From a virus, in the IMG/VR virus record IMGVR_UViG_3300022929_002740, positions 1-63,917 of that record: a DNA stretch of 63,917 bases, one strand, 5' to 3'. The position numbers and the translations under genes are program-made. The notes below the pieces were generated by a model. The model was not told the DNA's origin. It saw nothing but the letters and a program-made list of their open reading frames with translations, and ran no database searches. Positions 3,701 to 62,174 of the stretch are shown here, piece by piece. Each line of letters starts with the position of its first letter. The first letter of the stretch is position 1.

Positions 3701-4409
3701 TGTCTACTACTAATATATCATTATTAGCATCATCCTTAACACTCAGTGCATCTGCTAGATTAGTAGGAACAACTATTTCATTTTCGCCTGTTGCACCTTT
3801 AAAGTTTATGCTTTCAGTTAGATATAGATCTTTCCAAGACTTTGTTGCACTGCCTAAATCGTAACTGTCATTTATGTTTGGAATTAGATCGCTGTTGATA
3901 TCTGCATTGATATTGATGTTATCTGTATCGTCGTCACCTAAATTAATGGTGCCGCCCACAGTAACATTTCCAGTAACATTTATGTTGCCGCCTACATTTA
4001 AATCTTTAACAATGCCTACGCCGCCTGCAATTGTTAGTGCGCCATCATTGAATGTGGTGCTTTGTGTTGCAGTAGAAATAGCAACAATACCTGTGTCACT
4101 GATTGTTATTCTTTCAGAACCTGCTGTAAAAAATCTTAGTACATCATCGTCAGCTGACTGTTCAGCATCAATGAACGTATCACCATCAGTATCACTAACG
4201 CCACCTATGTTTTTCCAAGCAGTGCCGTTGTAACCTTCAAATTCATTTAGTTGTGTATTGAATCGTATTTGCCCAGTTTGTACTACACCACCTTGTGGTC
4301 TCTGGGAAGTGTTACCCACTGGTATACGCAAACTGCCAGCAGTATTGATAGTTATGTTACCAGTACTAGTGGTAATCCTATCTCTTTGATGATCTAAATT
4401 CAACGCCAT
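783..4409 (-). CDS. Large modular tail-fibre/adhesin protein (1208 aa)
   Basis: A long beta-rich structural protein built from repeated modules. A 'TTAQRPTA..G.LRFN' block followed by 'Y.G..W' occurs three times (near residues 30, 300 and 700). A 'VSDLTDNRIV.AGT.GELED' block occurs twice. An 'FTGTGSQT.F...NGVL...APLLND' beta module occurs twice. Glycine runs link some modules, and an 'AATKQYVD' fibre motif lies in the last third. The C-terminal 100 residues look like a separate globular head. The same modules appear in neighbouring fibre genes and some in baseplate genes, so the set has evolved by module shuffling. It sits upstream of the truncated fibre gene at the left edge and downstream of the subtilase. 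Role in host recognition is inferred; an exact T4 counterpart cannot be assigned. Confidence 0.8.
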   Translation of the reverse strand: MALNLDHQRDRITTSTGNITINTAGSLRIPVGNTSQRPQGGVVQTGQIRFNTQLNEFEGYNGTAWKNIGGVSDTDGDTFIDAEQSADDDVLRFFTAGSERITISDTGIVAISTATQSTTFNDGALTIAGGVGIVKDLNVGGNINVTGNVTVGGTINLGDDDTDNININADINSDLIPNINDSYDLGSATKSWKDLYLTESINFKGATGENEIVVPTNLADALSVKDDANNDILVVDTTTGAITITLSGSLVVPSMAVSDLTDNRIVVAGTNGELEDDSNFTFDGSIFKVSTTDAIVIPTGTTAQRPTAQTGMLRFNSTSGKAEIYNGSGWIDVGSGTGTVNEAFKTISVSGQSDVVADDPTDTLTFVAGTGITITTNAATDEITITGVAQYGDSDVDTHLNTSTASTNEVLSWDGTDYAWVANSGGGGGSGFSDKIEDADGDTHVKVETNSDEDFIRFTTAGTERISVDNTGILTIGDLAGSTYYKFPTARGTTGQVLALDGSGNLTFQTVSGGGGGGGSAVYYQTTAPSIGVTAGDLWFDTGTTGELYVYTGSEWISTTPGADASFITVNFTGTGSQTAFDTQAGQGTVSMVFLNGVLIQPTNDYTESNGVVTFVTAPLLNDQIDVVVTGEVNALTLPSLGLANHGFIVVDTSGNVTMNSVKVSDLTDNRIVIAGTAGELEDSANLTFDGNDLVIDTNSSIRVPVGTTAQRPTAATGQLRFNTTDSSFEGYDGTAWGAIGGGGTLNIAGDSGTDAIDVENDTFTIIGGTGLTSTVTNNQVAIALDNTAVTPGAYGSTTAIPVITVDQQGRITAASTAALSVNKFATINVTDTNSGYSFSQTGSLNAVSDSDSLTFLGGTNVDIDVDTTNNVIKIDAVSNSAYTLHSFTGTGSQTTFVTSNTAISDAQIYINGVLLDAADYSIAANGNITFGVAPLLNDEIRVYAFTTDVSVFSLAALGIDNHDEITVDSSGNVTLTGTLTLASDPTANLHAATKQYVDAQLTAQDLDVAGDTGTGAIDLDSQSLTIAGTTNEIETSASGQTITVGLPNDVTIGNDLIVTGDLTVDTDTLVVDKANDRVGVGIATPLETLHVDGAIRIDGVSNLETASTSLSTTTQSAIDTFATTKFRSCKYTVQATDTVSSEYQVVEVLLIHDGTTAYVTTYGVMFTGSAELVTFDADINSGNVRLLATGASANSTQYKITRISTLV

Positions 4410-4449
4410 ATATGTCTCTCACTTATTACATATATTTAGCTGTGAACTA

Positions 4450-6084
4450 CTATGGATTCTGAATTCTAAACTTATATTGTCCTGGAAACGGACTATACAA
4501 ATAACGGTCAGGTGCACCTTGAAGATACCTACCATCTGAGGCCGAACTTCTATAATTTGAATTTGCAATAGTCCATGTTGAATAATTTGGATCTTCTCTA
4601 AGTTTACCCGACTGTGCTTGATTATGTAGGAAAGTTTTTAGCTGTGCAGGAGTCATGTGTGGGTTAACTTGTAATACTAATGCACCTATACCACATACTT
4701 GCGGACTTGCCATACTTGTTCCACTTTTACTGCCAATTTTAAAATTAGCATCACTTGGATAATCACCGTCTGCACCTTCGTTGGTTGTACTCATAGTGCT
4801 TATAATATTATCTCCAGGTGCGTATATATCAACACCCGGGCCACTATTGGAATACGAAGCTCTTTGTTCTAGATTACCAGTAGAATTAACAACATCATCT
4901 ACAGATCCTACCATAAATGCATTTGTACTAAATGGACTGCTTCCTCGACAGTAGTAGATATAACCACCCGGAGTTCCGTATGGATTAACTCTATATCTAT
5001 TATTATAATCAGGACCTCCGTCGACATCAATTGGTAAATTTCTATTACCTGCCGCTATGCACACATGGACACCTGCTGCAATTAATTCTTCTACATCAGT
5101 ATCAACACTAGTATATCTAGGATTTGTTCTCCTAACAGATTGACTGGTATATGCATTCCACAATGGCAGCCCGGTTCTTTGTTGCATTAGTAAAGAACCT
5201 GAAAAACTATTAGCAACACCTGTATTATTATTGTCGTATGTCCACTGTGTTCCTCTATAGTATCCATCATATGGCTCAAAGCTATTATCTACATAATATC
5301 CCCAACTCATATTAACTATTGTAGGACGCTTGTATCCTGTTGCAGGATCAACTGGTTTGTTTTGATGCCAAATTTTTATTGCATCAAATGCATATGTAGA
5401 ACTAATACCTGTTCCACTATCGCCGCTACCTTCAAGCCCACCGAGTTTTTGACTGTATATACGAGCATTTTTAGCCCATCCATATGTAAGACTTGCAGCA
5501 GTTCCTGCACAATGTGTGCCATGTCCATGATAATCTCTATCGTGATTAGCACTTTGTGTAAAACTTAAACCACTTTCAGTTGCCCAGTTAATAGATGTTA
5601 CTCTGCTGTTTCCATCTGCATCGTTGAAATCAGGATGATCAGCTTGAATACCACTATCTTGTATTACTATGTCAACTCCAGTTCCGTCTAAGTTATATTC
5701 ATAATCTCCGCTAACAGTTGTTCCTGCTCCATAATCATTGGTGGTTCTTGAACATCTATGTATTGCCCACGGAAGGTGAGATCCACTACTGCTACTAGTT
5801 TTGGTAAAATCTCCCGACTGAACTGCATAAAGTTCCATTCCAGAATCTGGTATATCATCTGGCGGAACTTCTACATCTAATACTCTATTGTCATTTTTTA
5901 ATGCTTCAGCTTCTTCTGCTGTTAAACTATAATGTGTATTACGCACTGATCCTGGTCTTGGATTTGCAATATCAACACTGCGAGAAGGTATAGACGAATC
6001 TCCAGAATTTTGTGTCATTTCTGCTTGAAAACTACTAGGGTCTGCATCTACTGTTAGTGTAACAATATATTCTTTTTCACTCAT
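4450..6084 (-). CDS. Subtilisin-like serine protease (peptidase S8)
   Basis: A 544-residue protein with a complete subtilase catalytic set: Asp143 in 'VIQDSGIQADHPDF', His188 in 'HGHGTHCAG', Ser457 in 'SGTSMASPQ', and oxyanion Asn347 in 'AAGN'. Residues 1-80 resemble a short inhibitor-I9-like propeptide ('YSLTAEEAEALKNDNRVLDVE'-type segment), so it may be made as a zymogen. No signal peptide is visible, which fits packaging into the virion or action inside the infected cell rather than Sec export. It lies between fibre genes, 9 nt from the upstream one, so it should be expressed late with them. It might process fibres or degrade host surface proteins; both are inference. The family call is secure. 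Confidence 0.93.
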   Translation of the reverse strand: MSEKEYIVTLTVDADPSSFQAEMTQNSGDSSIPSRSVDIANPRPGSVRNTHYSLTAEEAEALKNDNRVLDVEVPPDDIPDSGMELYAVQSGDFTKTSSSSGSHLPWAIHRCSRTTNDYGAGTTVSGDYEYNLDGTGVDIVIQDSGIQADHPDFNDADGNSRVTSINWATESGLSFTQSANHDRDYHGHGTHCAGTAASLTYGWAKNARIYSQKLGGLEGSGDSGTGISSTYAFDAIKIWHQNKPVDPATGYKRPTIVNMSWGYYVDNSFEPYDGYYRGTQWTYDNNNTGVANSFSGSLLMQQRTGLPLWNAYTSQSVRRTNPRYTSVDTDVEELIAAGVHVCIAAGNRNLPIDVDGGPDYNNRYRVNPYGTPGGYIYYCRGSSPFSTNAFMVGSVDDVVNSTGNLEQRASYSNSGPGVDIYAPGDNIISTMSTTNEGADGDYPSDANFKIGSKSGTSMASPQVCGIGALVLQVNPHMTPAQLKTFLHNQAQSGKLREDPNYSTWTIANSNYRSSASDGRYLQGAPDRYLYSPFPGQYKFRIQNP

Positions 6085-6093
6085 TGCAAATCC

Positions 6094-7491
6094 TTAAACA
6101 ATATTAATTGTATTACCCATACCCGAATGTATGGTGCATTGATAATACAATGTCGACGGAGCACTCATAGGCACTTTGAATACAATGTTTCCACTCGAAG
6201 CACTATTGTTAGTCACTCCGGTGTTATATGCCGCTCCACCGGCACTTTGTCTAATTTCAAAAGGATGCCCGCCGCCTGAATTGTTTACAAATATATACTG
6301 TTCACCTCTGCGAAGATATAATACTGGGTCATTTTCAGTAGTCGGAAACCATATGTTTCCTGCATCTGAGAATGTATAATCTGTAGATCCGTTTGATCCT
6401 ATCGTAAATGTATGTGCAATTGTTTTACCATTTACATCTAAGTCACCACCAAGTTGTGGAGTTGTATCTGCTGCTACACTTGCAATGCCACTGCCACTAA
6501 TGTTAGTTAACTGTGATCCATCTACAGCTGGTAATTTTGCTGTTCCGTCTAGCTGTACAATTTTGTTTGCTGTTGTGCCTACGTCAACTGCTAGTGTTTG
6601 TGTATGATCACCTGTTGTTGTATCTTGTGTTCCTGTTAAACCTGTACCTGCTGTAATATTAACTCTTGTGATATCTCCACTAGCGCCGCTACTACCTGCG
6701 GTTGCCACCCAAGCATTGTTTTCATAACTTTCCAATTGATTAGTTGTAGTATTATAAATCATATCTCCATTTGCAGGACTAGAAATAGCATTACGAGTAG
6801 TTGTTGTAAAACTTGCTAATCTAAATGGAGTATCTGTAACTAGTACACGATTTGTTGCGTCTAGTTCTATATTTGCTCCAGCACTGATAGTTGTACTACC
6901 TGATCCTGTTACATTTAAATTTGTTGCTGTAATATTGGGAACAGTTAGTGTATTAGTAGTACTGTTATACGTAAAATCACTGTCGCCTCCAAATGCACCT
7001 GCATTATTAAATTGTACTTGAGTTGTACTGCCTCCTGGTGTGCCTCCGCCACCTGTCTGTGCTACCCATGCATAATCACTTCCGTTCCAACTTAGTACAT
7101 AACCACTGGTTGGATTTGACTGATTTAAATGTGTATCAACGGAGCTGTTTATATCCGGAGGTGTGTATGTAAAAACTCCTGAACTGTTATCATAAGAAAT
7201 AGCGCCATCACCACTTGCTGATCCTTCACTACCAACACTCAAGTCAGTTAACGAAATGCCACCACTTCCTGCAGCATCATTTTGGGGTATCCAATTACTA
7301 CCATTCCATTTTAACACTTGTCCAGTTGAAGGAGCATTTGTAGTTGTATCGACATCTGATAGTGTATCTATACTTCCGATACTAGCTCCACTAAATTGTG
7401 AATTAGCCCAAGACTGAGTGGCAACTAAATTACCAAACATGTTGATGTTTCCGGAAACATCTAGATCGTTATTAAATTTTGTTTCACTCAT
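6094..7491 (-). CDS. Fibre protein with C-terminal cupredoxin (type 1 copper) domain
   Basis: A 465-residue structural protein. The N-terminal two thirds are the same Gly/Thr-rich modules as its neighbours ('TPPDINSSVDTHLN', 'DYAWVAQTGGGG', 'DTTPQLGGDLD'). The last 100 residues form a cupredoxin-like domain: a 'YTFSDAGN' strand, 'GGGHPFEIR' with His409, and a C-terminal loop 'YQCTIHSGMGNTI' with Cys452, His455 and Met458. The C-x2-H-x2-M spacing is that of amicyanin-like proteins, and all four type 1 copper ligands appear intact. A cupredoxin fold could also be used only as a binding head. The ORF is preceded on the minus strand by a near-late-promoter motif (TTTAAATA). Structural role is likely; copper binding is an inference from the ligands. 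Confidence 0.82.
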   Translation of the reverse strand: MSETKFNNDLDVSGNINMFGNLVATQSWANSQFSGASIGSIDTLSDVDTTTNAPSTGQVLKWNGSNWIPQNDAAGSGGISLTDLSVGSEGSASGDGAISYDNSSGVFTYTPPDINSSVDTHLNQSNPTSGYVLSWNGSDYAWVAQTGGGGTPGGSTTQVQFNNAGAFGGDSDFTYNSTTNTLTVPNITATNLNVTGSGSTTISAGANIELDATNRVLVTDTPFRLASFTTTTRNAISSPANGDMIYNTTTNQLESYENNAWVATAGSSGASGDITRVNITAGTGLTGTQDTTTGDHTQTLAVDVGTTANKIVQLDGTAKLPAVDGSQLTNISGSGIASVAADTTPQLGGDLDVNGKTIAHTFTIGSNGSTDYTFSDAGNIWFPTTENDPVLYLRRGEQYIFVNNSGGGHPFEIRQSAGGAAYNTGVTNNSASSGNIVFKVPMSAPSTLYYQCTIHSGMGNTINIV

Positions 7492-50941: not shown

Positions 50942-51918
50942 CGAATCTAGTACCTATTACAGAATTTGATATTGTGTTTATCAGCTATGACGAACCAAAT
51001 GCAGATGAAAATTACAGCGACCTATTAGAAAAATGCCCGTGGGCAAAACGCAGTCACGGAGTATGGGGCAGTGATGCTGCACACAAAGCCGCAGCCGCAT
51101 TAAGTGAAACAGACCGCTTTATTACTGTAGACGCTGACAACATTGTTAGAGAAGACTTCTTTAATATTGAAGTTGATATGGATCGTGTTAGAGATGCAGA
51201 TGTTATTAGTTGGGCAGGTAAGAATACTATTAACGGTCTAGTATACGGCAACGGCGGTATCAAGTGTTGGCCCGTTGATGTTGTTAATCGTATGCGTACA
51301 CACGAAGCTGCACCAGCCAATGACAAAGCCGCACAAGTAGATTTTTGCTGGAACATACACTATGTACAAATGAACAATATCTACTGTGATGTTATGAATA
51401 ACGGAAGTCCGCTACAAGCATGGAGAGCTGGATTTCGTGAAGGCGTTAAGATGGGATTAGAAGGCGGTGATGTAGTTGATCCTGATAGAATCAAACATAT
51501 TTTTAGAGAAAATTACAAACGCTTAATGGTATGGATGACAGTTGGTGAAGATGTTACCAATGGACTATGGGCAATATATGGTGCTAGACTTGGATGCCAT
51601 ATGACTAACATTGTAAGAAATGATTGGGATTGGAAAAACGTTAGAGACTTTGATTGGCTCACGGAATATTTTAACAAAGAACTTGCTCCACAATTTGAAG
51701 GCGGCGAACAGTTGTGTCCACGTACAGGTATGATGTGGGATATGCAAAAACTAAAACAAGAAACTGTTAGATTAGGAGACGACATCAGAGGAAAGTTAGA
51801 TTTAGAGATAGCTGATATTGGCGTAGACGGAAGTAGATTCTTCAAAACTGTGTATAAAAATCCTGCTAGACTTGGTGCTATGGTCAGAGAAGATCAAGTG
51901 GAAGACAGCCTTGAATAA
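50938..51918 (+). CDS. GT2-like glycosyltransferase (326 aa)
   Basis: The N-terminus 'FDIVFISYDEPNADENYSDL' followed by 'SDAAHKAAAALSETDRFITV' and the DxD-type 'DADN' (Asp65, Asp67) are a GT-A core. The rest is less conserved, with 'GNGGIKCWPVDVV' and several Trp-rich segments. Marine phages carry many proteins of this kind. Substrate unknown. It overlaps the previous gene (ATGA) and its stop overlaps the TTG start of the next. Confidence 0.72.
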   Translation: MTNLVPITEFDIVFISYDEPNADENYSDLLEKCPWAKRSHGVWGSDAAHKAAAALSETDRFITVDADNIVREDFFNIEVDMDRVRDADVISWAGKNTINGLVYGNGGIKCWPVDVVNRMRTHEAAPANDKAAQVDFCWNIHYVQMNNIYCDVMNNGSPLQAWRAGFREGVKMGLEGGDVVDPDRIKHIFRENYKRLMVWMTVGEDVTNGLWAIYGARLGCHMTNIVRNDWDWKNVRDFDWLTEYFNKELAPQFEGGEQLCPRTGMMWDMQKLKQETVRLGDDIRGKLDLEIADIGVDGSRFFKTVYKNPARLGAMVREDQVEDSLE

Positions 51919-52696
51919 AACCGTTGTACTTGTAACAGGAGGATTTGATCCGTTACATTCAGGTCATATTGAATATTTTAAAGCCGCTAAACAACTAGGC
52001 GACAAACTAGTTGTGGGTTTGAACAGCGACGAATGGTTAATTCGTAAAAAAGGCAGACCTTTTATGTCTTTCCAAGAACGTAGTAAGATTATAAGTGCGC
52101 TAGAGTGCGTTGACACAGTAATTAGTTTTGATGACAGCGACGATACTGCCTGCGGAGCCATTTATAAAACTCTTGCTACACACGGAAATATAAAAGTTAT
52201 CTTTGCTAACGGTGGTGATAGGAACAATATTACTACACCAGAATACAAAACTTGGGGAGATCATCCCGATGTGAAATTTGCCTGGGGTGTTGGAGGAGAC
52301 TACAAAGCCAACAGTAGTAGTTGGATATTAGACGAGTGGAAGACACAAAAGACTGAACGTGAATGGGGGTACTGGCGTGTACTAGATGACAAAGGCACAG
52401 TCAAAGTAAAAGAACTTGTGATCAATCCAGGATGCAGTCTAAGTGATCAACGTCATATGCACAGGCGTGAACATTGGTATATACTAAGTGGAAGTTGTAA
52501 AATAGAAATAGAGAAGGATGATATTATACAAACAAATGCAGGTAGAGATCAAACTGTTCTATTGACACAAAACAAAACACATGTTATTAATGTATATGAC
52601 TGGCATCGAGCGTACAATCCTTATGACGAACCTTGTCACATATTAGAAGTTCAATACGGTAAAAAATGTATTGAAGAGGATATTGAACGTAGATGA
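51911..52696 (+). CDS. Fusion of sugar nucleotidyltransferase and mannose-6-phosphate-isomerase-like cupin
   Basis: With a TTG start at 51911 the protein has 261 residues. Domain 1 (about 1-140) is an RfaE/TagD-type nucleotidyltransferase: 'TGGFDPLHSGHIEYFKAAKQ' (His16, His19) and 'VVGLNSDEWLIRKKGRPFM'. Domain 2 (about 150-261) is a cupin of the type II mannose-6-phosphate isomerase kind: 'WGYWRVLDD', 'KVKELVINPG' and 'HMHRREHWYILSG', with metal ligands His182, His184 and His188 and a Glu at 187. The longer frame begins at another TTG, but TTG 51911 overlaps the upstream stop and puts the first strand in the normal place. The fusion suggests sugar-phosphate activation and isomerisation in one protein; the substrate is inferred. 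Confidence 0.85.
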   Translation: MNKTVVLVTGGFDPLHSGHIEYFKAAKQLGDKLVVGLNSDEWLIRKKGRPFMSFQERSKIISALECVDTVISFDDSDDTACGAIYKTLATHGNIKVIFANGGDRNNITTPEYKTWGDHPDVKFAWGVGGDYKANSSSWILDEWKTQKTEREWGYWRVLDDKGTVKVKELVINPGCSLSDQRHMHRREHWYILSGSCKIEIEKDDIIQTNAGRDQTVLLTQNKTHVINVYDWHRAYNPYDEPCHILEVQYGKKCIEEDIERR

Positions 52697-54153
52697 CAGA
52701 TAAAAATAACTATGAGTTAGACCCAGATCCAGAAACAGCGGCAGAGTTAGTAAAGCCAAAACTAGACGAAATTAGCCCTACTATGTGTATGGCTAAATGG
52801 TTGTGGACTAGTGTTCATTTAACTAACGGAACTACCAACAGTTGTTTCCTTCCACCTATACACAAAATTGAAGTAGATAATATTGTAAACAATCCTAAAG
52901 GATTGCACAATACTCCACAGAAAAAAGAGCAACGTCAGATGATGCTAGACGGTGAACAGCCGGATGGTTGTAGCTACTGTTGGAACATCGAAAAGATGGA
53001 CAGATCATTTAACAGTGATCGTCACTATCGCAGTAGCGAGCCTTGGGCTCAGGCTGGATGGGATGATGTAATACAAACAGGAGCGCAAGGAGATATTGAG
53101 CCACGCTTTATGGAGATCAATTTTAATCATGCTTGTAACTTAGCATGTAGTTATTGTAGTCCACATTTAAGCAGTAAGTGGGCAGAAGATATTGAACAGC
53201 ATGGTCCTTATCCTACTAAAGTACCGCACAACAGCATTGACTATTTCAAACAAATAGGGCAGTACCCTATTCCAAACAGAGAACACAATCCATATGTGGA
53301 AGCATTTTGGCAATGGTGGCCTGAACTATATCCTAAGCTACAAAACTTTCGCATGACAGGCGGCGAGCCGCTTATGGATAAGAATACATTTCGTGTACTA
53401 GATTATGTAATAGACAACGGCAGAGATGATTTAGAAATGGCTGTTACAACCAATGCTAGTGTTCCTGATAAACTGTGGAATAACTTTGTAGACAAAGTTA
53501 GTTTTATCAGTGAGTATAAAAAACTCAAACGTTTTAGAATATTTGTTAGTGTCGACGGATGGGGCGATCAAGCTGAATATATGCGTCATGGATTAGATTT
53601 TGATCGCATGTGGAACAATGTGCATAATTACTTGAGTAGAGTAGACGAAGGTCTTGTTACGTTTATTGTAACATTTAACATGCTTAGTTTACCCAGCATT
53701 CAGAAATTATTAGAGGGCATATTAGAACTACAAAGGGTACACAATGTAACTAAAAGTAGACGTGATGCAGATGGCAATATTGTAGTGTATGGACATCACA
53801 AAGTATTTTTGGATACACCTATGCTACGTTATCCTGAATGGCAAAGTTTACAACTTACACCAGAAAGTCATTGGCACTACGCAGATGAAGCACTAGAATT
53901 TATGAAAGCAAACGAAGATCAACATAGAAAAAGTAGATGGGTAGGATTTAAACCGCATCAAATCGAACGTTTTGATCGCAGTATTGAGTTTATGAAACAA
54001 GGCTTTGATAGCAGTGAACAAAAACAAGAAGCACAAGAAAACTTTATAAGATTCTTTGGTGCACACGACTACAGAAGAAACACAGACTTTAGTGCAACAT
54101 TCCCTGAATTTGCAGAAGTGTTTGCTAAATGGAAAGAGAAATATAATGTTTAA
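52693..54153 (+). CDS. Radical SAM protein 1 of 7, N-terminal SPASM/twitch-like domain
   Basis: A 486-residue enzyme. The core has C148-x3-C152-x2-C155 in 'CNLACSYC' and the SAM-binding 'MTGGEPLMD'. Before the core are Cys32, Cys51, Cys93 and Cys96 ('GCSYCW'), a set expected to hold an auxiliary iron-sulfur cluster. This is the layout of twitch-domain radical SAM proteins of phages. 'RIFVSVDGWGDQAEYMRHG' later in the barrel is shared with the sister proteins. Starts with an ATGA overlap with the cupin fusion. The reaction is unknown; the family abstracts hydrogen atoms from sugars or peptides. Confidence 0.9.
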   Translation: MTDKNNYELDPDPETAAELVKPKLDEISPTMCMAKWLWTSVHLTNGTTNSCFLPPIHKIEVDNIVNNPKGLHNTPQKKEQRQMMLDGEQPDGCSYCWNIEKMDRSFNSDRHYRSSEPWAQAGWDDVIQTGAQGDIEPRFMEINFNHACNLACSYCSPHLSSKWAEDIEQHGPYPTKVPHNSIDYFKQIGQYPIPNREHNPYVEAFWQWWPELYPKLQNFRMTGGEPLMDKNTFRVLDYVIDNGRDDLEMAVTTNASVPDKLWNNFVDKVSFISEYKKLKRFRIFVSVDGWGDQAEYMRHGLDFDRMWNNVHNYLSRVDEGLVTFIVTFNMLSLPSIQKLLEGILELQRVHNVTKSRRDADGNIVVYGHHKVFLDTPMLRYPEWQSLQLTPESHWHYADEALEFMKANEDQHRKSRWVGFKPHQIERFDRSIEFMKQGFDSSEQKQEAQENFIRFFGAHDYRRNTDFSATFPEFAEVFAKWKEKYNV

Positions 54154-55810
54154 AAATGTAGACTATATACGTGAACGTGAAAATATGAAAGAGCGTTATG
54201 GCTGTGATACTATGTGTACAGCTAAATTCTTTACTAGTACAATATATCTACAAAGTGGTCAAACACACAGTTGTTATCATCCATTGCCACATCAGATTCC
54301 ATTGGAAGAAATTAAAGATAACCCTAGCGCACTGCACAATACCAAACATAAAATTGAACGCCGCAAACAAATGATCTTAGGAGAGCGTCCTAGTGAATGT
54401 AATTACTGCTGGCGTGTAGAAGATATGGGCGACGAATACATCAGCGACAGAGTAATCAAAAGTAAAAATGAACTATTGCTTACTCCAAATGCACATGAAA
54501 AAATACAAGAAATGGGATGGGATCACAACTATCAGCCCACTTATCTAGAAATTAGTTTTGGCAATGAGTGTAATATGAAATGTGCATACTGTCATCCCAA
54601 GGCTAGCAGTGCATGGCAAAAAGAAATGATGCAAGGTCCATTGGAAAATGCAGAACATTTACAAGTATTGGATGAGAAAATCTATCCAGAAGATGATAAC
54701 CCATATGTAGAAGCATTTTGGGAATGGTGGCCATACCTGCGCAAGTCACTCAAAGTAATTCGTGTCACAGGCGGCGAACCACTGCTACAACAAAACGTTT
54801 GGAAGTTTTTTGACAGACTCGAGAAAACAAACGAATGTGCTGATATGATTGTACAGCTCAATACAAATCTAAATGTAAAGACCAAATTGGTCGAGCGAAT
54901 GATTACCAAAGTAAACAAATTGTTAACAGAGAAAAAGATCAAAAAATTTGCACTGTACAGCAGCATTGAAAGTTGGGGCGATAGAGCCACTTATGCCAGA
55001 AGCGGATTAAACTTAGAATTATTTGAAACAAATCTCAAACTTATTATGCAAAAGCTAGGACATCATCATGTAGACGACTTTAGCGGCATACAGATTATGA
55101 ACACATTTAATATCATGTGTGTTACCAGCTATGTAGAGTTTTTAAAGAAAATCGACGAGTGGAGAAGAGAACTACAACACGGAAAAGAATATCCTAAGGT
55201 AATGTTTGACATTCCACACTGCACTGAACCTAATCATTGGACACTAGTAGGATTACCGGATCGTTATGATGAATATTTTGATCTAGTAACTGCTTATTTT
55301 GAAAAAAACAAATGGAAAAGCAACTGGCAAAAATATCCCAAGGATCAACACGACGATAATTATTTTAACTACTACAGTGAAGAAGAAGTAAAAAGCTGGC
55401 AACGAGTTGTGAGTATGTGGAAAACAATATGTGAAAAACGTAGTAAAGTAAATACTGATGCATACTTACAGCCCAGAGAAATAGATGATGCAAGACGTAA
55501 CTGGATATTGTTTATTAAAGCCACAGACAAACGTAGAAACACAAACTTCAAAAATATCTTTCCTGAAATGAGTGACTATTACGATTTGTGTAGTACACTA
55601 GAAGATATTAGGTTTATGGAATACAACAGACAGTGTAAAGATGATCTGTTATCTGAAGACGAAATAGATTTTCATTGGGACGATGATTTTGTATGGCATC
55701 ATCCAGGCTTAGCTAATGCACTAATAAACTACAGAAAAGTTAGGAACTATCCTACTAAGATGTACAGTCATGATGAGCTGGTTGGAGAATTTGGACATGA
55801 CGAAGAATAA
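54146..55810 (+). CDS. Radical SAM protein 2 of 7 (554 aa)
   Basis: The start at 54146 is preceded by GGAAAGAG and overlaps the previous stop by 8 nt. Auxiliary cysteines 24, 43, 85 and 88; radical SAM motif C142-x3-C146-x2-C149 ('CNMKCAYC'); 'VTGGEPLLQ' follows. It is closest to protein 1 in layout: both share 'NPYVEAFW.WWP' between the core motif and GGEP, suggesting a duplication. It is the longest of the set, with an extra C-terminal region of about 100 residues with acidic and Trp/His-rich stretches ('DFHWDDDF'-type). Confidence 0.9.
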   Translation: MFKNVDYIRERENMKERYGCDTMCTAKFFTSTIYLQSGQTHSCYHPLPHQIPLEEIKDNPSALHNTKHKIERRKQMILGERPSECNYCWRVEDMGDEYISDRVIKSKNELLLTPNAHEKIQEMGWDHNYQPTYLEISFGNECNMKCAYCHPKASSAWQKEMMQGPLENAEHLQVLDEKIYPEDDNPYVEAFWEWWPYLRKSLKVIRVTGGEPLLQQNVWKFFDRLEKTNECADMIVQLNTNLNVKTKLVERMITKVNKLLTEKKIKKFALYSSIESWGDRATYARSGLNLELFETNLKLIMQKLGHHHVDDFSGIQIMNTFNIMCVTSYVEFLKKIDEWRRELQHGKEYPKVMFDIPHCTEPNHWTLVGLPDRYDEYFDLVTAYFEKNKWKSNWQKYPKDQHDDNYFNYYSEEEVKSWQRVVSMWKTICEKRSKVNTDAYLQPREIDDARRNWILFIKATDKRRNTNFKNIFPEMSDYYDLCSTLEDIRFMEYNRQCKDDLLSEDEIDFHWDDDFVWHHPGLANALINYRKVRNYPTKMYSHDELVGEFGHDEE

Positions 55811-57098
55811 AGACTATCTTGTTAATGAAAGCAAACATTTTTGCATGGCACCATGGGTAACAATGCATTTGTGGCCCAGTGGGGAAGCAATGCCATGCTG
55901 TGTGGTTGTACCAGATGAAGACACACCGTTTAGTGGCAAACTTGGAAACATACAAGACAACAGTATAAGTGACTTATGGAACAGTTCATTGATGAAGGAA
56001 CTGAGAACTAACATGCTAGCTGACAAACCCAGTCAGACATGTGAACGTTGTATCAAACAAGAAGCCGCAGGCAACCAATACACACTTAGACGAGAATTAA
56101 ACAAAGACTTTTCTGATTATTTTTATAGAACACAAGACACTAATCAAGACGGCAGTCATGATGATCCTAAAATTTATTATTGGGATGTAAGATTCAATAA
56201 CTTGTGCAATTTACGTTGTTTGAGTTGTAGTGTAAAGTTTAGCAGTAGTTGGTATAACGATAGTGTTAAAAGACACGAGTACGATGGACCTGCACTGCTA
56301 CAGTTACCAAAAAGTTTTTGGGAAGAAGCATTGCCTCTGATTGGCGAAGTGCAACATGCGTACTTTGCAGGCGGCGAGCCATTGATGACAGAAGAACATT
56401 ATCGTATGCTAGATACATGGATTGAAGCAGGTAATACTGATTTAAAAATAAGTTATACCACAAACTTTACAAAAACTAGATTAGGCAATCGTTATATCTT
56501 TGACTATTGGAATAAGTTTAGCAATGTACATGTGGGTGCAAGTTTAGATGACAATTGGGAACGTGCAGAATATTTGCGTAAGGATACAGTATGGACTGAT
56601 ATTGTACAAAATCGCAAAGACATGATTAAAGACAGTCCTGATACAAGATTCTTTTTGAGCAGTACAATAGGTATTTTTAATGTACTACATTGGCCTGACT
56701 TTCACAAGGAATGGATTGAAGAAGAACTAGTAGATCCTATCGACTTTAACTTAACTCTACTCACACATCCTGAGTATTTGAGTATGACAGTGATGCCAAC
56801 TGAATTTAAAAAACGTGTAGAAAAACGTTGGTTAGAACACAGAGACTATATTGAAAAAGCATTTTATCATGCTCATCCTGATTGGGACTATAGACCAGAT
56901 CACATGCAAAGTATGATTGATGGATTGCTTAAATATCTATGGAGCGAAGATAATTCTCAACTAATAGATAGATTTCACGATGAACAACGCTGGATGGATA
57001 AGATCCGCAATAACAATTGCTATGATGTCTATACTGAATTAGAAGAACTTAAAACATATGGCGATCATTATGAAAAAGTAGCAAACCGAGGATGGTAA
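55797..57098 (+). CDS. Radical SAM protein 3 of 7 (433 aa)
   Basis: The start at 55797 follows GGAGA and overlaps the end of protein 2. The N-terminal SPASM-like part reads 'FCMAPWVTMHLWPSGEAMPC' (Cys16, Cys34, Cys35) then 'GKLGNIQDNSISDLWNS' and 'CERC' (82, 85). Core C137-x3-C141-x2-C144 ('CNLRCLSC') and 'FAGGEPLMT'. It is clearly paralogous to protein 4 through 'FCMAPW', 'LWNS', 'LR.NMLADK' and 'W...RKxTVW.DI'. Confidence 0.9.
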   Translation: MTKNKDYLVNESKHFCMAPWVTMHLWPSGEAMPCCVVVPDEDTPFSGKLGNIQDNSISDLWNSSLMKELRTNMLADKPSQTCERCIKQEAAGNQYTLRRELNKDFSDYFYRTQDTNQDGSHDDPKIYYWDVRFNNLCNLRCLSCSVKFSSSWYNDSVKRHEYDGPALLQLPKSFWEEALPLIGEVQHAYFAGGEPLMTEEHYRMLDTWIEAGNTDLKISYTTNFTKTRLGNRYIFDYWNKFSNVHVGASLDDNWERAEYLRKDTVWTDIVQNRKDMIKDSPDTRFFLSSTIGIFNVLHWPDFHKEWIEEELVDPIDFNLTLLTHPEYLSMTVMPTEFKKRVEKRWLEHRDYIEKAFYHAHPDWDYRPDHMQSMIDGLLKYLWSEDNSQLIDRFHDEQRWMDKIRNNNCYDVYTELEELKTYGDHYEKVANRGW

Positions 57099-58372
57099 TG
57101 CAAAACGAAAAATATAATTTAACAGAGAGCAAAACCTTTTGCATGGCACCATGGATACACATGCATGTGTGGCCCAATGGTCGTGCTTTTCCTTGTTGTT
57201 TGGCTGATCACAGTTATGGCAATGACTACGGAAATACTAACACTAATACACTAAGTGAACTGTGGAACAGCGATCTAGCAAGAACACTTAGAAGCAATAT
57301 GTTGGCTGATAAAAAGACCAGTGCATGTAATCGTTGCTATGAACTAGAAGCAGATAGTAATGCATACACACTGCGAAAAAATATGAATAATCGTTTTGCA
57401 CATCATTATTGGAGAACCAATGATACACAACAAGATGGTACTTATGACACTGTAAACTTTACATATATGGATTTTAGATTTAGTAATATGTGTAATATGA
57501 GTTGCCGTAGTTGTAGTCCTACATTTAGTACACAATGGTATGACGACTTTATGAAAGAATTTGGACATGTTCCAGATGATGTTGCACCTCAAAAGTTTAT
57601 CCAACTCAAAAACAAACCAGGCTTCTTAGAAGAATTGCGTCCTTATTTAGACACAGTTGAAGAAGTATATTGGGCAGGCGGTGAGCCAATGGTCACTGAC
57701 ATGCACTGGGATATTATGAATCATTGGGTTGAAACAGGACATGCAGAAAATGTAAGCATACTGTATACCACAAACTTTAGTCAACTTACATATAAAAATC
57801 AACACATATTTGACCTATGGCGCAAATTTAAAAGTGTAAAAGTTAGTGCTAGTTTAGATGGCATGGGCAGTCGTGCTGAGTACATTAGAAAAGGCACAGT
57901 GTGGCAAGATATAGAAGATAATCGTATTGCAATGAAAGAACAATTGCCCAACATCTTCTTTGATATTTGTCCTACAGTAAGCATGATGAATATTTTACAC
58001 TTACCTGATTTCTTTGAAAACTGGACTGAAAGAGGATTGCTTAACGCTGGAGAAGTAAGACTAAACAATCTACTAGATCCGAAGTTTTTAAGTGTACAAA
58101 CACTTCCTACAGAATATAAAAAGCGTGTAACAGATAGATGGGAACAGCATTTAGAATGGTTACTAAAACGAGATGACTTTTGTCCAGATCATTGGCCCGC
58201 CAATGAAATTATTGATAGTGGACAGGGTACTATAAACTTTATGAATAAAACTGATAGGACTGAATTACTGCCTGAAACTATCAAAGAGTTTGAAAGATGG
58301 GATCGTATTAGGAATGAAAATTGGCTAGAAGCACTTCCTGAATTAGAATGTATTGGAGCATATCGTGAGTAG
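57098..58372 (+). CDS. Radical SAM protein 4 of 7 (424 aa)
   Basis: The start at 57098 is chosen because GAGG lies at the right distance and TAATG overlaps the previous stop; an ATG 6 nt earlier is possible. Cysteines 15, 33, 34, 77 and 80 in the N-terminal domain; core C132-x3-C136-x2-C139 ('CNMSCRSC'); 'WAGGEPMVT'. Close relative of protein 3. The barrel contains 'KVSASLDGMGSRAEYIRKG', shared in form with proteins 1, 2 and 3. Confidence 0.9.
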   Translation: MQNEKYNLTESKTFCMAPWIHMHVWPNGRAFPCCLADHSYGNDYGNTNTNTLSELWNSDLARTLRSNMLADKKTSACNRCYELEADSNAYTLRKNMNNRFAHHYWRTNDTQQDGTYDTVNFTYMDFRFSNMCNMSCRSCSPTFSTQWYDDFMKEFGHVPDDVAPQKFIQLKNKPGFLEELRPYLDTVEEVYWAGGEPMVTDMHWDIMNHWVETGHAENVSILYTTNFSQLTYKNQHIFDLWRKFKSVKVSASLDGMGSRAEYIRKGTVWQDIEDNRIAMKEQLPNIFFDICPTVSMMNILHLPDFFENWTERGLLNAGEVRLNNLLDPKFLSVQTLPTEYKKRVTDRWEQHLEWLLKRDDFCPDHWPANEIIDSGQGTINFMNKTDRTELLPETIKEFERWDRIRNENWLEALPELECIGAYRE

Positions 58373-59654
58373 CACTTATTGTTTATATCCTTTTACTAAT
58401 CTAAACAGCAACACAGAAGGCAGTGTAAAACTGTGTTGTAGTATCAATGAAAACATTCATGCAACAGGTGGCGATGGCCAAGAACTAAACTTCGGCACAC
58501 ACAGTATTGACGAGATATGGAACAGCGATTATATGACAACTGTTCGTAAGCAAATGCTAAATGGTGAACGTCCAGAAGCGTGTGCCGTTTGTTGGAGACT
58601 AGAAGACAAAGGTATACAAAGCAGTAGACAAAGTGCATTTGGTGAGCTAAAAGAATGGGCTAATCCAAAACACTATCAAGTTGTTAAACCTCCATTACCA
58701 CAAAGTTTAGAACTTAGACTAGGACACTTTTGTAATCTACGTTGCAATAGTTGCTGGAGTTTAAGCAGTGATAGAATTTATAATGAACGTAAAAAAATTC
58801 TAGCAGTTGATAAGAATCTACCAGGATGGATGCGCAACGAATGGTCATATGAAATTGATCTAGCTGATGCTAGTAATTGGAATTGGTGGATGAGTGATGA
58901 GTTTGATAAAACTATACGCAAACTTGCTCCCACCCTTAAACGTTTGTATCTCACAGGCGGTGAACCTACACTTATTAAACGTAATATCGAAATTATGCAA
59001 ATGATATTAGAAAGTGGAAACACTGATTGTTATATTGCACTTACAACAAATTTAACAACTTGGAATGAAATATTTTTCCAAACAATGAGACGCTTTAAAC
59101 ACGGAGAGTTTCAGATCAGCATTGATCATTTATATGACAGGAACTATTACATACGTTATCCTACTCAGTGGGAAAAGATAGAAACGCACATGGTGCATAT
59201 CTATGACAACTTCCCTCCAAGTTGGAAAATTAAACACTACACAGTATTTCAAAATTACAATTGGGACGCAATTCCTGATATGTTAGATTGGGTACACAAA
59301 CACAGAAGTTATTGGAGCAAAGAAGAACATCAGCGTCAATATATTTGGAGTCCTATTATACTTGATAGTCCAAATTATTTGGATGTTCGAACTATTCCTT
59401 TGCATATTAGACAAGAAGCTGCGGATATACTGGAACAGTATAAACCTAACTATGATGTTCCAAATATATATTGGCAACATGGTAGTCAACAAGCAATTAA
59501 AATCCTCAGAGATGATACACTAGATGAAGAAGTAAGAATTGAAAGATTGCAAAAGTTTAGAGAATACTGCGACACAATGGATAGAAATAGAGGAACAGTT
59601 TGGTACAAAACTTTTTTAAATATTGCACAAAAGGTACTAAACGATGACGCATGA
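58365..59654 (+). CDS. Radical SAM protein 5 of 7 (429 aa), GTG start
   Basis: GTG at 58365 is preferred to an upstream TTG because GGAG sits 6 nt before it and the protein then begins just before the first conserved cysteine. Cysteines 6, 24, 25, 73 and 76; core C123-x3-C127-x2-C130 ('CNLRCNSC'); 'LTGGEPTLI'. The barrel has 'EFQISIDHLYDRNYYIRYPT', distinct from proteins 1-4, so its substrate probably differs. Its stop overlaps the next gene by 11 nt. Confidence 0.88.
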   Translation: MSSTYCLYPFTNLNSNTEGSVKLCCSINENIHATGGDGQELNFGTHSIDEIWNSDYMTTVRKQMLNGERPEACAVCWRLEDKGIQSSRQSAFGELKEWANPKHYQVVKPPLPQSLELRLGHFCNLRCNSCWSLSSDRIYNERKKILAVDKNLPGWMRNEWSYEIDLADASNWNWWMSDEFDKTIRKLAPTLKRLYLTGGEPTLIKRNIEIMQMILESGNTDCYIALTTNLTTWNEIFFQTMRRFKHGEFQISIDHLYDRNYYIRYPTQWEKIETHMVHIYDNFPPSWKIKHYTVFQNYNWDAIPDMLDWVHKHRSYWSKEEHQRQYIWSPIILDSPNYLDVRTIPLHIRQEAADILEQYKPNYDVPNIYWQHGSQQAIKILRDDTLDEEVRIERLQKFREYCDTMDRNRGTVWYKTFLNIAQKVLNDDA

Positions 59655-60645
59655 ACTTATCAGGATTGAACAAGCAGGCGAACCGTTTGTAAACATAACA
59701 TGGCAAGTTAGCAATTTGTGTAACTTTCGTTGCACATACTGTAATGAAAACAATTGGAATGGAAGCAATTTAAATTTAGACATAGAAGCTGTTAAGCAAG
59801 GTTTAACAAAGATCATAGACTATGAACTAAGCAGAGGTTATACTAGACTAAAAGTTTTCTTCTCAGGTGGTGAACCTTGTTATTGGAAGCCTTTGATTCC
59901 TGTTATGGATCACATACTAGCTAGTGGAATGAGTGAAGTCAAGTTTGCAGTAAACACAAATCTAAGTAGCAAAATGTCGTGGTGGGAAAAGAATGTACAC
60001 TATTTTGATGATGTTGTTGCTAGTTACCATCCTGAGTTTGTAGACAGTGATCACTATATGGAAATCTATAAATTTTTAAGTGATAAAGTAAACTATCTAT
60101 GTGGGCGTATGATGATGCACGAACCAACTTGGGATGAAGTTATTGACTTTAGTAAAAGACTAAAAACAGAAATGAGTGAACACAACTGGCGTGTAGAGTA
60201 TGTACCTATCTTCGAAGAGCTCAGTCACACAACAAGGCCTTACAATTATAAAAATCCAGAACACAAGAAGTTTTTAGAAACAACCAACTTAGAACAAGAT
60301 ATTAAATACAACGTGCCTGCAAAAGCAGAAGGCATGGGCAGTATAGAAGTATACAATGACGGATCTACTCAGCCTATTAATTGTAACAGACTAGTAGCAG
60401 AAAGCAAAAACTTCTTCAAAGGATGGAAATGTCTAATACCAATGGAGAGTATCTTTATCAATTGTGAAGGCAAAATAGATATGGGTAGTTGTGGAGTTAT
60501 GCCACAAGTTGGTAATTTATATGATCCTGAATTACAATTGGATTTACCTGACAGTATAATTTGTCCTAAGAGCCATTGTCACTGTGGTACAGACATTTAT
60601 ATTACAAAATACAAGGATAAAAATTATGAAGCAATTAGCACTTAA
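59644..60645 (+). CDS. Radical SAM protein 6 of 7, C-terminal auxiliary-cluster domain
   Basis: A 333-residue protein of different build. The core motif is close to the N-terminus (C26-x3-C30-x2-C33, 'CNFRCTYC') and 'FFSGGEPCYW' follows. There is no cysteine set before the core. Instead the C-terminal 100 residues have 'NCNRL', 'KCLIP', 'INCEGKIDMGSCG' and 'CPKSHCHCGTD', the usual C-terminal SPASM/twitch position. It is the only member of the cassette with standard order. It overlaps proteins 5 and the NTF2-like gene. Confidence 0.88.
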   Translation: MTHELIRIEQAGEPFVNITWQVSNLCNFRCTYCNENNWNGSNLNLDIEAVKQGLTKIIDYELSRGYTRLKVFFSGGEPCYWKPLIPVMDHILASGMSEVKFAVNTNLSSKMSWWEKNVHYFDDVVASYHPEFVDSDHYMEIYKFLSDKVNYLCGRMMMHEPTWDEVIDFSKRLKTEMSEHNWRVEYVPIFEELSHTTRPYNYKNPEHKKFLETTNLEQDIKYNVPAKAEGMGSIEVYNDGSTQPINCNRLVAESKNFFKGWKCLIPMESIFINCEGKIDMGSCGVMPQVGNLYDPELQLDLPDSIICPKSHCHCGTDIYITKYKDKNYEAIST

Positions 60646-60946
60646 TTACTTTGCTGCATGGAATGCACAGGATGCACGTTGGCTTACACATTTATTCGAC
60701 AATGATGTTACACTAGTTGATTGGGATAACAGTGTGAGTGGGTTAATTGATGTAGTAGAGATGAATAGAAAAATATGGGCAGACGTTCCAGACATTAAAG
60801 CAACAGTACTAGACATTGCTGAAAGTGAACAACACTGTATTGCAAAACTACTGATACAAATAGACGATGATACTAGCATCGATGTAGTAGATGTGTTTAC
60901 AATGAAAGACGGCAAGATCACCAGTATCAAAGCCTACAAAGGATAA
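60626..60946 (+). CDS. NTF2/SnoaL-like protein (106 aa)
   Basis: The start at 60626 is preceded by AAGGAT; the frame is open further upstream but lies inside the previous gene. 'NYFAAWNAQDARWLTHLFDN' then 'VTLVDWDNSVSG' and an ending 'VVDVFTMKDGKITSIKAYKG' are typical of the SnoaL-like cone-shaped fold. Members include isomerases, cyclases and non-catalytic subunits. Lying between two radical SAM genes it may be an isomerase or a product-binding partner; this is inference. Confidence 0.82.
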   Translation: MKQLALNYFAAWNAQDARWLTHLFDNDVTLVDWDNSVSGLIDVVEMNRKIWADVPDIKATVLDIAESEQHCIAKLLIQIDDDTSIDVVDVFTMKDGKITSIKAYKG

Positions 60947-60947
60947 C

Positions 60948-62174
60948 ATGGATAAACAAACTTATTGCGTACTACCTTACAATCACCTTAGCATTGATCC
61001 TCAAGGTCAAGTACGTCCTTGCTGTAACTATAACTTTCATAAACAAAGTTTTAAAGACACAGGATGGAAATTTAAAAGCATATGGGATAGTGATAACTTA
61101 AATGAGTTGTTGCAAGGTGAACCGCATATTGAATTAAGAAAAGATGTTGAAGCTAATCATAAGCATAGTTTCTGTGATAGATGTTGGGTAAGCGAAGATA
61201 ATGGCGGTGAAAGCTATAGAAATATGTGGAACAATAGTTTTGGTTGCACTACACCCGAAACGTTTCAAAGACAAGTTAAGATTGAATATGTAGAATTTAC
61301 ACTAGGTAATAAGTGTAATATTCAGTGTAGAATGTGCAATCCTTGGAGTAGCAGTATGTGGGCAGACGAGATCTATAAAAACCCACAGCTGGACTTTTGG
61401 GAAACAGGAGCACATTTAGACAAAACAAAATTTGAATGGTATGATACGCCACAGTTTGATAAAATCTTCAATGAGATATTACCAACACTTAAACATGTAA
61501 ACATGTTAGGTGGTGAACCTTTGTTTAATGCAAAGTATTATGACATACTACAAAAGATAATTGACAGTGGTAGAGCAGGTGAGATTGTACTACAGTTCAA
61601 CAGTAATATGCTGGCTATTCAAGACAAAGTATATGATCTATGGCAACACTTTAAACTTGTGCAGATTAATATGAGTTGTGACGGTGTAGAAGGCGTAAAC
61701 GAATATGTAAGGTGGCCTGGTAAATGGAGTAAGTGGGAACGTAATCTCAACAGAGTTTTTGAGTGGCAACAAAAGTTAGGCTCAGATAAACTAAGTTTAC
61801 AGATACACAGTACACTCAGCAGTTTAACCTGGCTAGACTTAGGAAATTTGTATAGATACACACAAACGCTACCTATTATGTTCCAACTTCCGTTTTTAAT
61901 TCAAGTAACACAACCAGCAATGATGGATGCAATCCACTTGCCGCAACCTATCAAAGACAAAGGATACGAGCAGGCTATACAAGCACTAGAGAACAGTGGT
62001 GCAGAAGAGTGGGAAGTAAGTAATAATCGCAGTTTGTTAGAACATGTAATGAATACAGAACGCAATCCTGATTTATGGGAAATGTTTATTAACGAAACTA
62101 ATAAACTAGACAAAGTGAGAAATCAAAGCATACTAACATATGTTCCGGAGTATCAAGAATACTGGCATGAATAA
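60948..62174 (+). CDS. Radical SAM protein 7 of 7 (408 aa)
   Basis: N-terminal SPASM-like part with Cys7, 25, 26, 76 and 79 ('YCVLPYNHLSIDPQGQVRPC' then 'FKSIWDSDNLNELLQ' and 'CDRCW'). Core C123-x3-C127-x2-C130 ('CNIQCRMC'); 'MLGGEPLFN'. Closest in form to protein 5 in the SPASM part. AAAGGAT provides the ribosome binding site. The C-terminus overlaps the next gene by 8 nt. Substrate unknown. Confidence 0.9.
   Translation: MDKQTYCVLPYNHLSIDPQGQVRPCCNYNFHKQSFKDTGWKFKSIWDSDNLNELLQGEPHIELRKDVEANHKHSFCDRCWVSEDNGGESYRNMWNNSFGCTTPETFQRQVKIEYVEFTLGNKCNIQCRMCNPWSSSMWADEIYKNPQLDFWETGAHLDKTKFEWYDTPQFDKIFNEILPTLKHVNMLGGEPLFNAKYYDILQKIIDSGRAGEIVLQFNSNMLAIQDKVYDLWQHFKLVQINMSCDGVEGVNEYVRWPGKWSKWERNLNRVFEWQQKLGSDKLSLQIHSTLSSLTWLDLGNLYRYTQTLPIMFQLPFLIQVTQPAMMDAIHLPQPIKDKGYEQAIQALENSGAEEWEVSNNRSLLEHVMNTERNPDLWEMFINETNKLDKVRNQSILTYVPEYQEYWHE

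Follow-up and report, generated by a model that had tools for sequence, protein, structure and literature searches.

The window, the whole 63,917-nucleotide stretch of viral DNA analyzed here, carries an intact gene for a tail-fibre-like protein (Table 1). The N-terminal three quarters of the protein consist of fibre-like repeats, and a distinct domain makes up the final ~105 residues. T4-like structural genes surround the fibre gene: those for the portal, the prohead protease and the major head protein lie upstream, and a subtilase gene followed by a further fibre-like reading frame of 1208 aa lies downstream. Because the major head protein is closest to those of the Pseudomonas jumbo phage PA5oct (68%) and a Vibrio phage, we assign the window, on sequence grounds, to a fragment of a PA5oct-like myovirus; a cyanophage identity was dropped for the same reason. 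The fibre protein is presumably a component of the virion. Elsewhere in the window, radical SAM/SPASM genes and one for a nucleotidyltransferase-cupin protein form a run at positions 51872-62174.

Table 1. The fibre gene, its C-terminal domain, the predicted copper ligands and the adjoining subtilase gene in the window.
Feature	Position	Strand	Basis
Tail-fibre-like protein, 465 aa	6094..7491	-	Intact ORF; phrog_677 and other tail-fibre PHROGs
Cupredoxin domain, C-terminal, residues ~352-465	6097..6438	-	AlphaFold2 (AF2) model; Foldseek and VIA matches in the PDB; profile-PDB matches
His409 codon, predicted equatorial Cu ligand (HPF motif)	6265..6267	-	Aligned with amicyanin His53; conservation
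Cys452 codon, predicted Cu thiolate ligand	6136..6138	-	Aligned with amicyanin Cys92; conservation
His455 codon, predicted Cu ligand	6127..6129	-	Aligned with amicyanin His95; conservation
Met458 codon, predicted axial Cu ligand	6118..6120	-	Aligned with amicyanin Met98; invariant even in the ligand-loss clade
Subtilase (S8), 544 aa, adjoining the fibre gene	4450..6084	-	PF00082, E 4e-37

The C-terminal domain was modelled with AF2 from a 25-sequence alignment, and the fold was predicted with high confidence (pLDDT 94.5, pTM 0.86). The best PDB matches found by Foldseek were rusticyanin, three-domain Cu nitrite reductase (CuNIR), AcoP, plastocyanin, amicyanin and other cupredoxin folds, and the top Foldseek and VIA matches listed were all of the cupredoxin fold, nearly all of them copper proteins. 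The best match with VIA was the N-terminal domain of three-domain CuNIR (Z 10.8, rmsd 2.1 Å, 94 aligned residues, 23% identity), and rusticyanin gave a Z of 9.8. The CuNIR domain is part of an enzyme, whereas the phage domain has no catalytic partner domain. In the model the first His immediately precedes a strand, the Cys ends the penultimate strand, and the loop leading into the last strand contains the second His and the Met, a predicted placement that is consistent with the cupredoxin arrangement. The domain is thus a Greek-key beta-sandwich that matches solved cupredoxins, as members of the cupredoxin superfamily do. The first-pass annotation had recognized a cupredoxin at the tip of the fibre; its identity as a cupredoxin is supported, and the AF2 fold, the structure matches and the profile matches to copper proteins (below) all bear this out; the span it had given, 6094-6480, does contain the domain but is slightly wide. 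Predicted viral structures in BFVD agree with a cupredoxin domain and reach giant viruses weakly. The BFVD matches A0A481Z7Q7 and A0A481YVH3 are pithovirus/marseillevirus 'beta-sandwich proteins'.

Scored as a single sequence, the domain stayed below the cut-offs of known families. The Pfam family Copper-bind (PF00127, plastocyanin/azurin) gave 15.7 bits (E 0.021) against a gathering threshold of 21.2, and the NCBIfam plastocyanin model TIGR02656 failed with 13.8 bits against a cut-off of 87.85. The At5g54830-like family PF25489, which is named after a plant protein, covered most of the domain but also remained below threshold (16.4 bits against 27; E 0.009, best member 5e-4). Because of these scores, we did not assign the fibre domain to PF00127. 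Single-sequence searches of the PDB and Pfam were borderline only (E 0.009-0.8), and we therefore used profiles. A profile of 35 diverse members of the domain (A2, mean column identity 45%) gave 46 matches in the PDB, nearly all of them copper proteins, with CuNIR at E 2.2e-4, amicyanin at 4.8e-4 and plastocyanin at 1.4e-3.

We then examined the residues that would bind the metal. His409, Cys452, His455 and Met458 had been proposed as ligands with amicyanin-like spacing; their numbering is correct, the reading frame that encodes them is intact, and the C-x2-H-x2-M loop has the amicyanin length. In an hhalign profile-sequence alignment all four residues fell in register with amicyanin, and plastocyanin and rusticyanin also aligned across the ligand region. 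The distance from the first His to the Cys is 43 residues; in amicyanin it is 39 and in plastocyanin 47. The three equatorial ligands and the axial Met occur in the canonical order, His, Cys, His and Met, and loop spacing of a type-1 (blue) copper site, as far as sequence can indicate one. The beta-sandwich and the His...Cys-x2-His-x2-Met pattern are common to the phage domain and the type-1 cupredoxins amicyanin, plastocyanin, pseudoazurin and rusticyanin. The phage domain differs from these in being fused to a fibre, in having no signal peptide and in scoring below the Pfam and NCBIfam cut-offs.

A pattern of this kind could be a chance motif or the product of a misread frame, with no real domain behind it, and the bare motif is indeed common in random frames: the expression H-x(30-60)-CxxHxxM matched 14 times in 127,830 six-frame residues, mostly in out-of-frame or stop-containing frames, and is not significant by itself. 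Evidence beyond chance comes from the fold, from the match of the profile to copper proteins and from the conservation of the ligands. An origin by chance is refuted by the high-confidence fold, by the profile matches in the PDB and by conserved relatives that number in the hundreds, and we give it practically no credence.

Our first scan for homologues used patterns that included the ligands, so that it was unable to test their conservation, and its count of 81/81 domains with His, Cys, His and Met (HCHM) proves little. For this reason we rescanned with the ligand-free N-terminal 55 residues of the domain as the only query. This ligand-blind scan returned 59 distinct domains, two of them cut by contig ends, and HCHM was kept in 54 of the 57 complete ones. 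The other three, from six loci that form one clade (L162-L166 and L169), read N/D, S, N and M at the four positions. Thirty columns are invariant in the 54; at these columns the exceptions all differ at the three equatorial ligands and at one end-gap column, and at no others. The concentration of changes at the ligands has a hypergeometric P of ~1e-3, a value that rests on one clade, and hence one event, noticed post hoc. The clade has the same downstream gene as its ligand-bearing sisters L149-L153, suggesting that the two groups are likely orthologous. The first-pass annotation had named loss of ligands in close homologues as evidence against the site. Such loss does occur, in one clade out of an otherwise ligand-keeping set, and it is concerted, as would be expected for a metal site; the joint loss of His, Cys and His thus argues for a metal site in the other members. 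Among the 35 members of profile A2 the Met was invariant and His, Cys and His were near-invariant, and conservation extended down to ~25-30% identity. In the alignment, an apparent 'LCHM' row from P-SSM2 was rejected as a ligand variant, since it is an alignment slip in which LTHQLRFY carries the His; the S-CAM1 rows are split alignments.

Fully ligand-less relatives were also found in related phages, one in a 4896-codon frame (L095) and three in 629-aa proteins (L097, L098 and L099). Because these and the ligand-loss clade exist, copper is apparently not required for the fold in every case. The same relatives lend some weight to the view that the domain is an ordinary beta-sandwich in which the conserved Cys, His, His and Met serve folding or bind zinc, with copper uninvolved. 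This would leave unexplained why exactly His, Cys and His were lost together, why the loop spacing and register of amicyanin are matched exactly, and why conservation persists among such distant members, and we consider it unlikely. Copper is the simplest reason for the pattern of conservation and concerted loss, and we think it quite probable that the domain binds copper.

Next, we asked how widely the domain occurs. With tblastn it was found in 369 isolate-phage records. Almost all of these are marine cyanophages, the remainder being two Pelagibacter phages plus a small number of others, and a divergent query added Methylophilales phages. In isolate phages the domain is carried by gp9-type connectors, (proximal) fibres, gp7 of P-HM2, a protein of the podovirus P-GSP1, and subtilases. 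In cyanophages it terminates the gp9-type baseplate connector. The corresponding profile, phrog_677 ('baseplate wedge tail fiber protein connector'), matched fibre residues 263-465 over profile positions 229-409 of 412 (E 3.6e-43); the C-terminal cupredoxin domain and its ligands are the same in both, whereas the N-terminus of the window protein is unmatched and the window phage is PA5oct-like rather than a cyanophage. In nearly every fibre from the ligand-blind set the domain continues up to the stop codon, which makes the earlier placement at the tip of a fibre plausible as a deduction from C-terminal position, but in P-GSP1 and P-SSM2 it is N-terminal or internal.

The domain is also associated with subtilases. 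The subtilase of the window has the D/H/S catalytic motifs (DSG, HGTH and GTSMA), and in 40 of 68 related loci the next gene downstream encodes a subtilase. In ACG-2014e subtilase and cupredoxin are one protein, in locus L082 the cupredoxin is inserted in the subtilase, and phrog_9158 covers both. This recurrence in connectors, fibres, gp7 and subtilases, including the fusions and the insertion, suggests from sequence that the domain is a mobile virion-type module that is widespread in marine phages and not peculiar to one phage or fibre. In GTDB only five loci with the domain were found, of which L082 and L083 lie within fibre-like proteins and look phage-derived. L084, a Bacteroidetes MAG protein with collagen-like repeats, and L085, a large repetitive protein from a Prochlorococcus single-cell genome, are relatives of the domain that keep the ligands.

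Taken together, we favour as the best explanation, with somewhat better than even confidence, that the domain is a modular copper-binding cupredoxin with a metal-stabilized attachment or structural role. One copper ion would be bound in a type-1-like site by His409, Cys452 and His455, with Met458 as the axial ligand. The copper would hold the loops in place at one end of the beta-sandwich and lend rigidity to the exposed end, which touches the surface of the host or an adjacent protein of the tail. Marine phages would move the domain between proteins of the adsorption apparatus. Against this reading, phages assemble in the cytoplasm, which contains little free copper, and this bears on when the metal would be loaded.

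The first-pass annotation had raised electron exchange with host surface proteins. Electron carriers do share the fold and the ligands, and two large relatives encode a separate pseudoazurin-like gene, so that a redox-active site in the virion, exchanging electrons with surface or periplasmic proteins of the host, may be considered. However, the proposal has no support here: we identified neither a redox partner nor a docking patch or chain of cofactors, and a site on a fibre gives no hint of a circuit. Moreover, the Asn that follows the first ligand His in amicyanin and plastocyanin (HN), where it is conserved, is replaced by Pro in the phage domain (HPF). We regard a redox function as very improbable. 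We consider electron transfer less likely than a metal-stabilized module for attachment or structure, since the domain recurs at the ends of adsorption proteins and a clade seems able to drop the metal yet keep the fold sequence.

Fibres of T4 (gp37) and of Alteromonas phage R22Y have HxH iron sites, proposed or shown (PMC11705849). As in the present case, the metal site is in a fibre of the adsorption apparatus, but these fibres bind iron through HxH, whereas ours is a predicted copper-type site in a separate folded domain. Such iron-binding HxH fibres, of T4 gp37 and of marine phages, are the nearest precedent for the idea that copper is used to exploit or contact copper-handling surface proteins of the host, a copper analogue of the iron 'Ferrojan/Trojan Horse' idea. 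The marine distribution of the isolates with the domain and its presence in adsorption-type proteins fit this idea. The window phage, however, has no known host or receptor, and the domain extends beyond receptor-binding tips to gp9, gp7 and subtilases; we rate the idea as rather doubtful, if less so than a redox role.

Since virion-type proteins from many marine phages contain the domain, copper may well be present in the particles of these phages. A wider proposal, which we offer tentatively, is that several marine phage lineages carry copper in the adsorption apparatus through a shared module, for host recognition or particle stability, and that the ligand-loss clade represents a switch away from it. 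Cupredoxin domains are familiar from the periplasm, from thylakoids and from enzymes. In the open-access papers searched, we found no description of a cupredoxin in a phage tail protein, a virion or a cyanophage. If the domain does bind copper in these adsorption proteins, copper would join iron among the metals discussed for marine virus particles, with a bearing on trace-metal binding by viruses, and a domain of the virion could be followed by simple spectroscopy. With a clade that lacks the ligands by nature, the part played by copper can be tested directly.

The two relatives with a pseudoazurin-like gene are L222 and L224 (contigs 3300046171_000193 and _000182), whose fibres carry the cupredoxin domain. 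The pseudoazurin-like protein has 143 aa and a likely signal peptide, and it matches TIGR02375 with E 3e-28, just under the cut-off. A relative is present in 246 IMG/VR contigs, and no match was found among isolate phages. In L222 the gene lies at 4001-4432, and a gene for a T4-like DNA polymerase follows immediately downstream.
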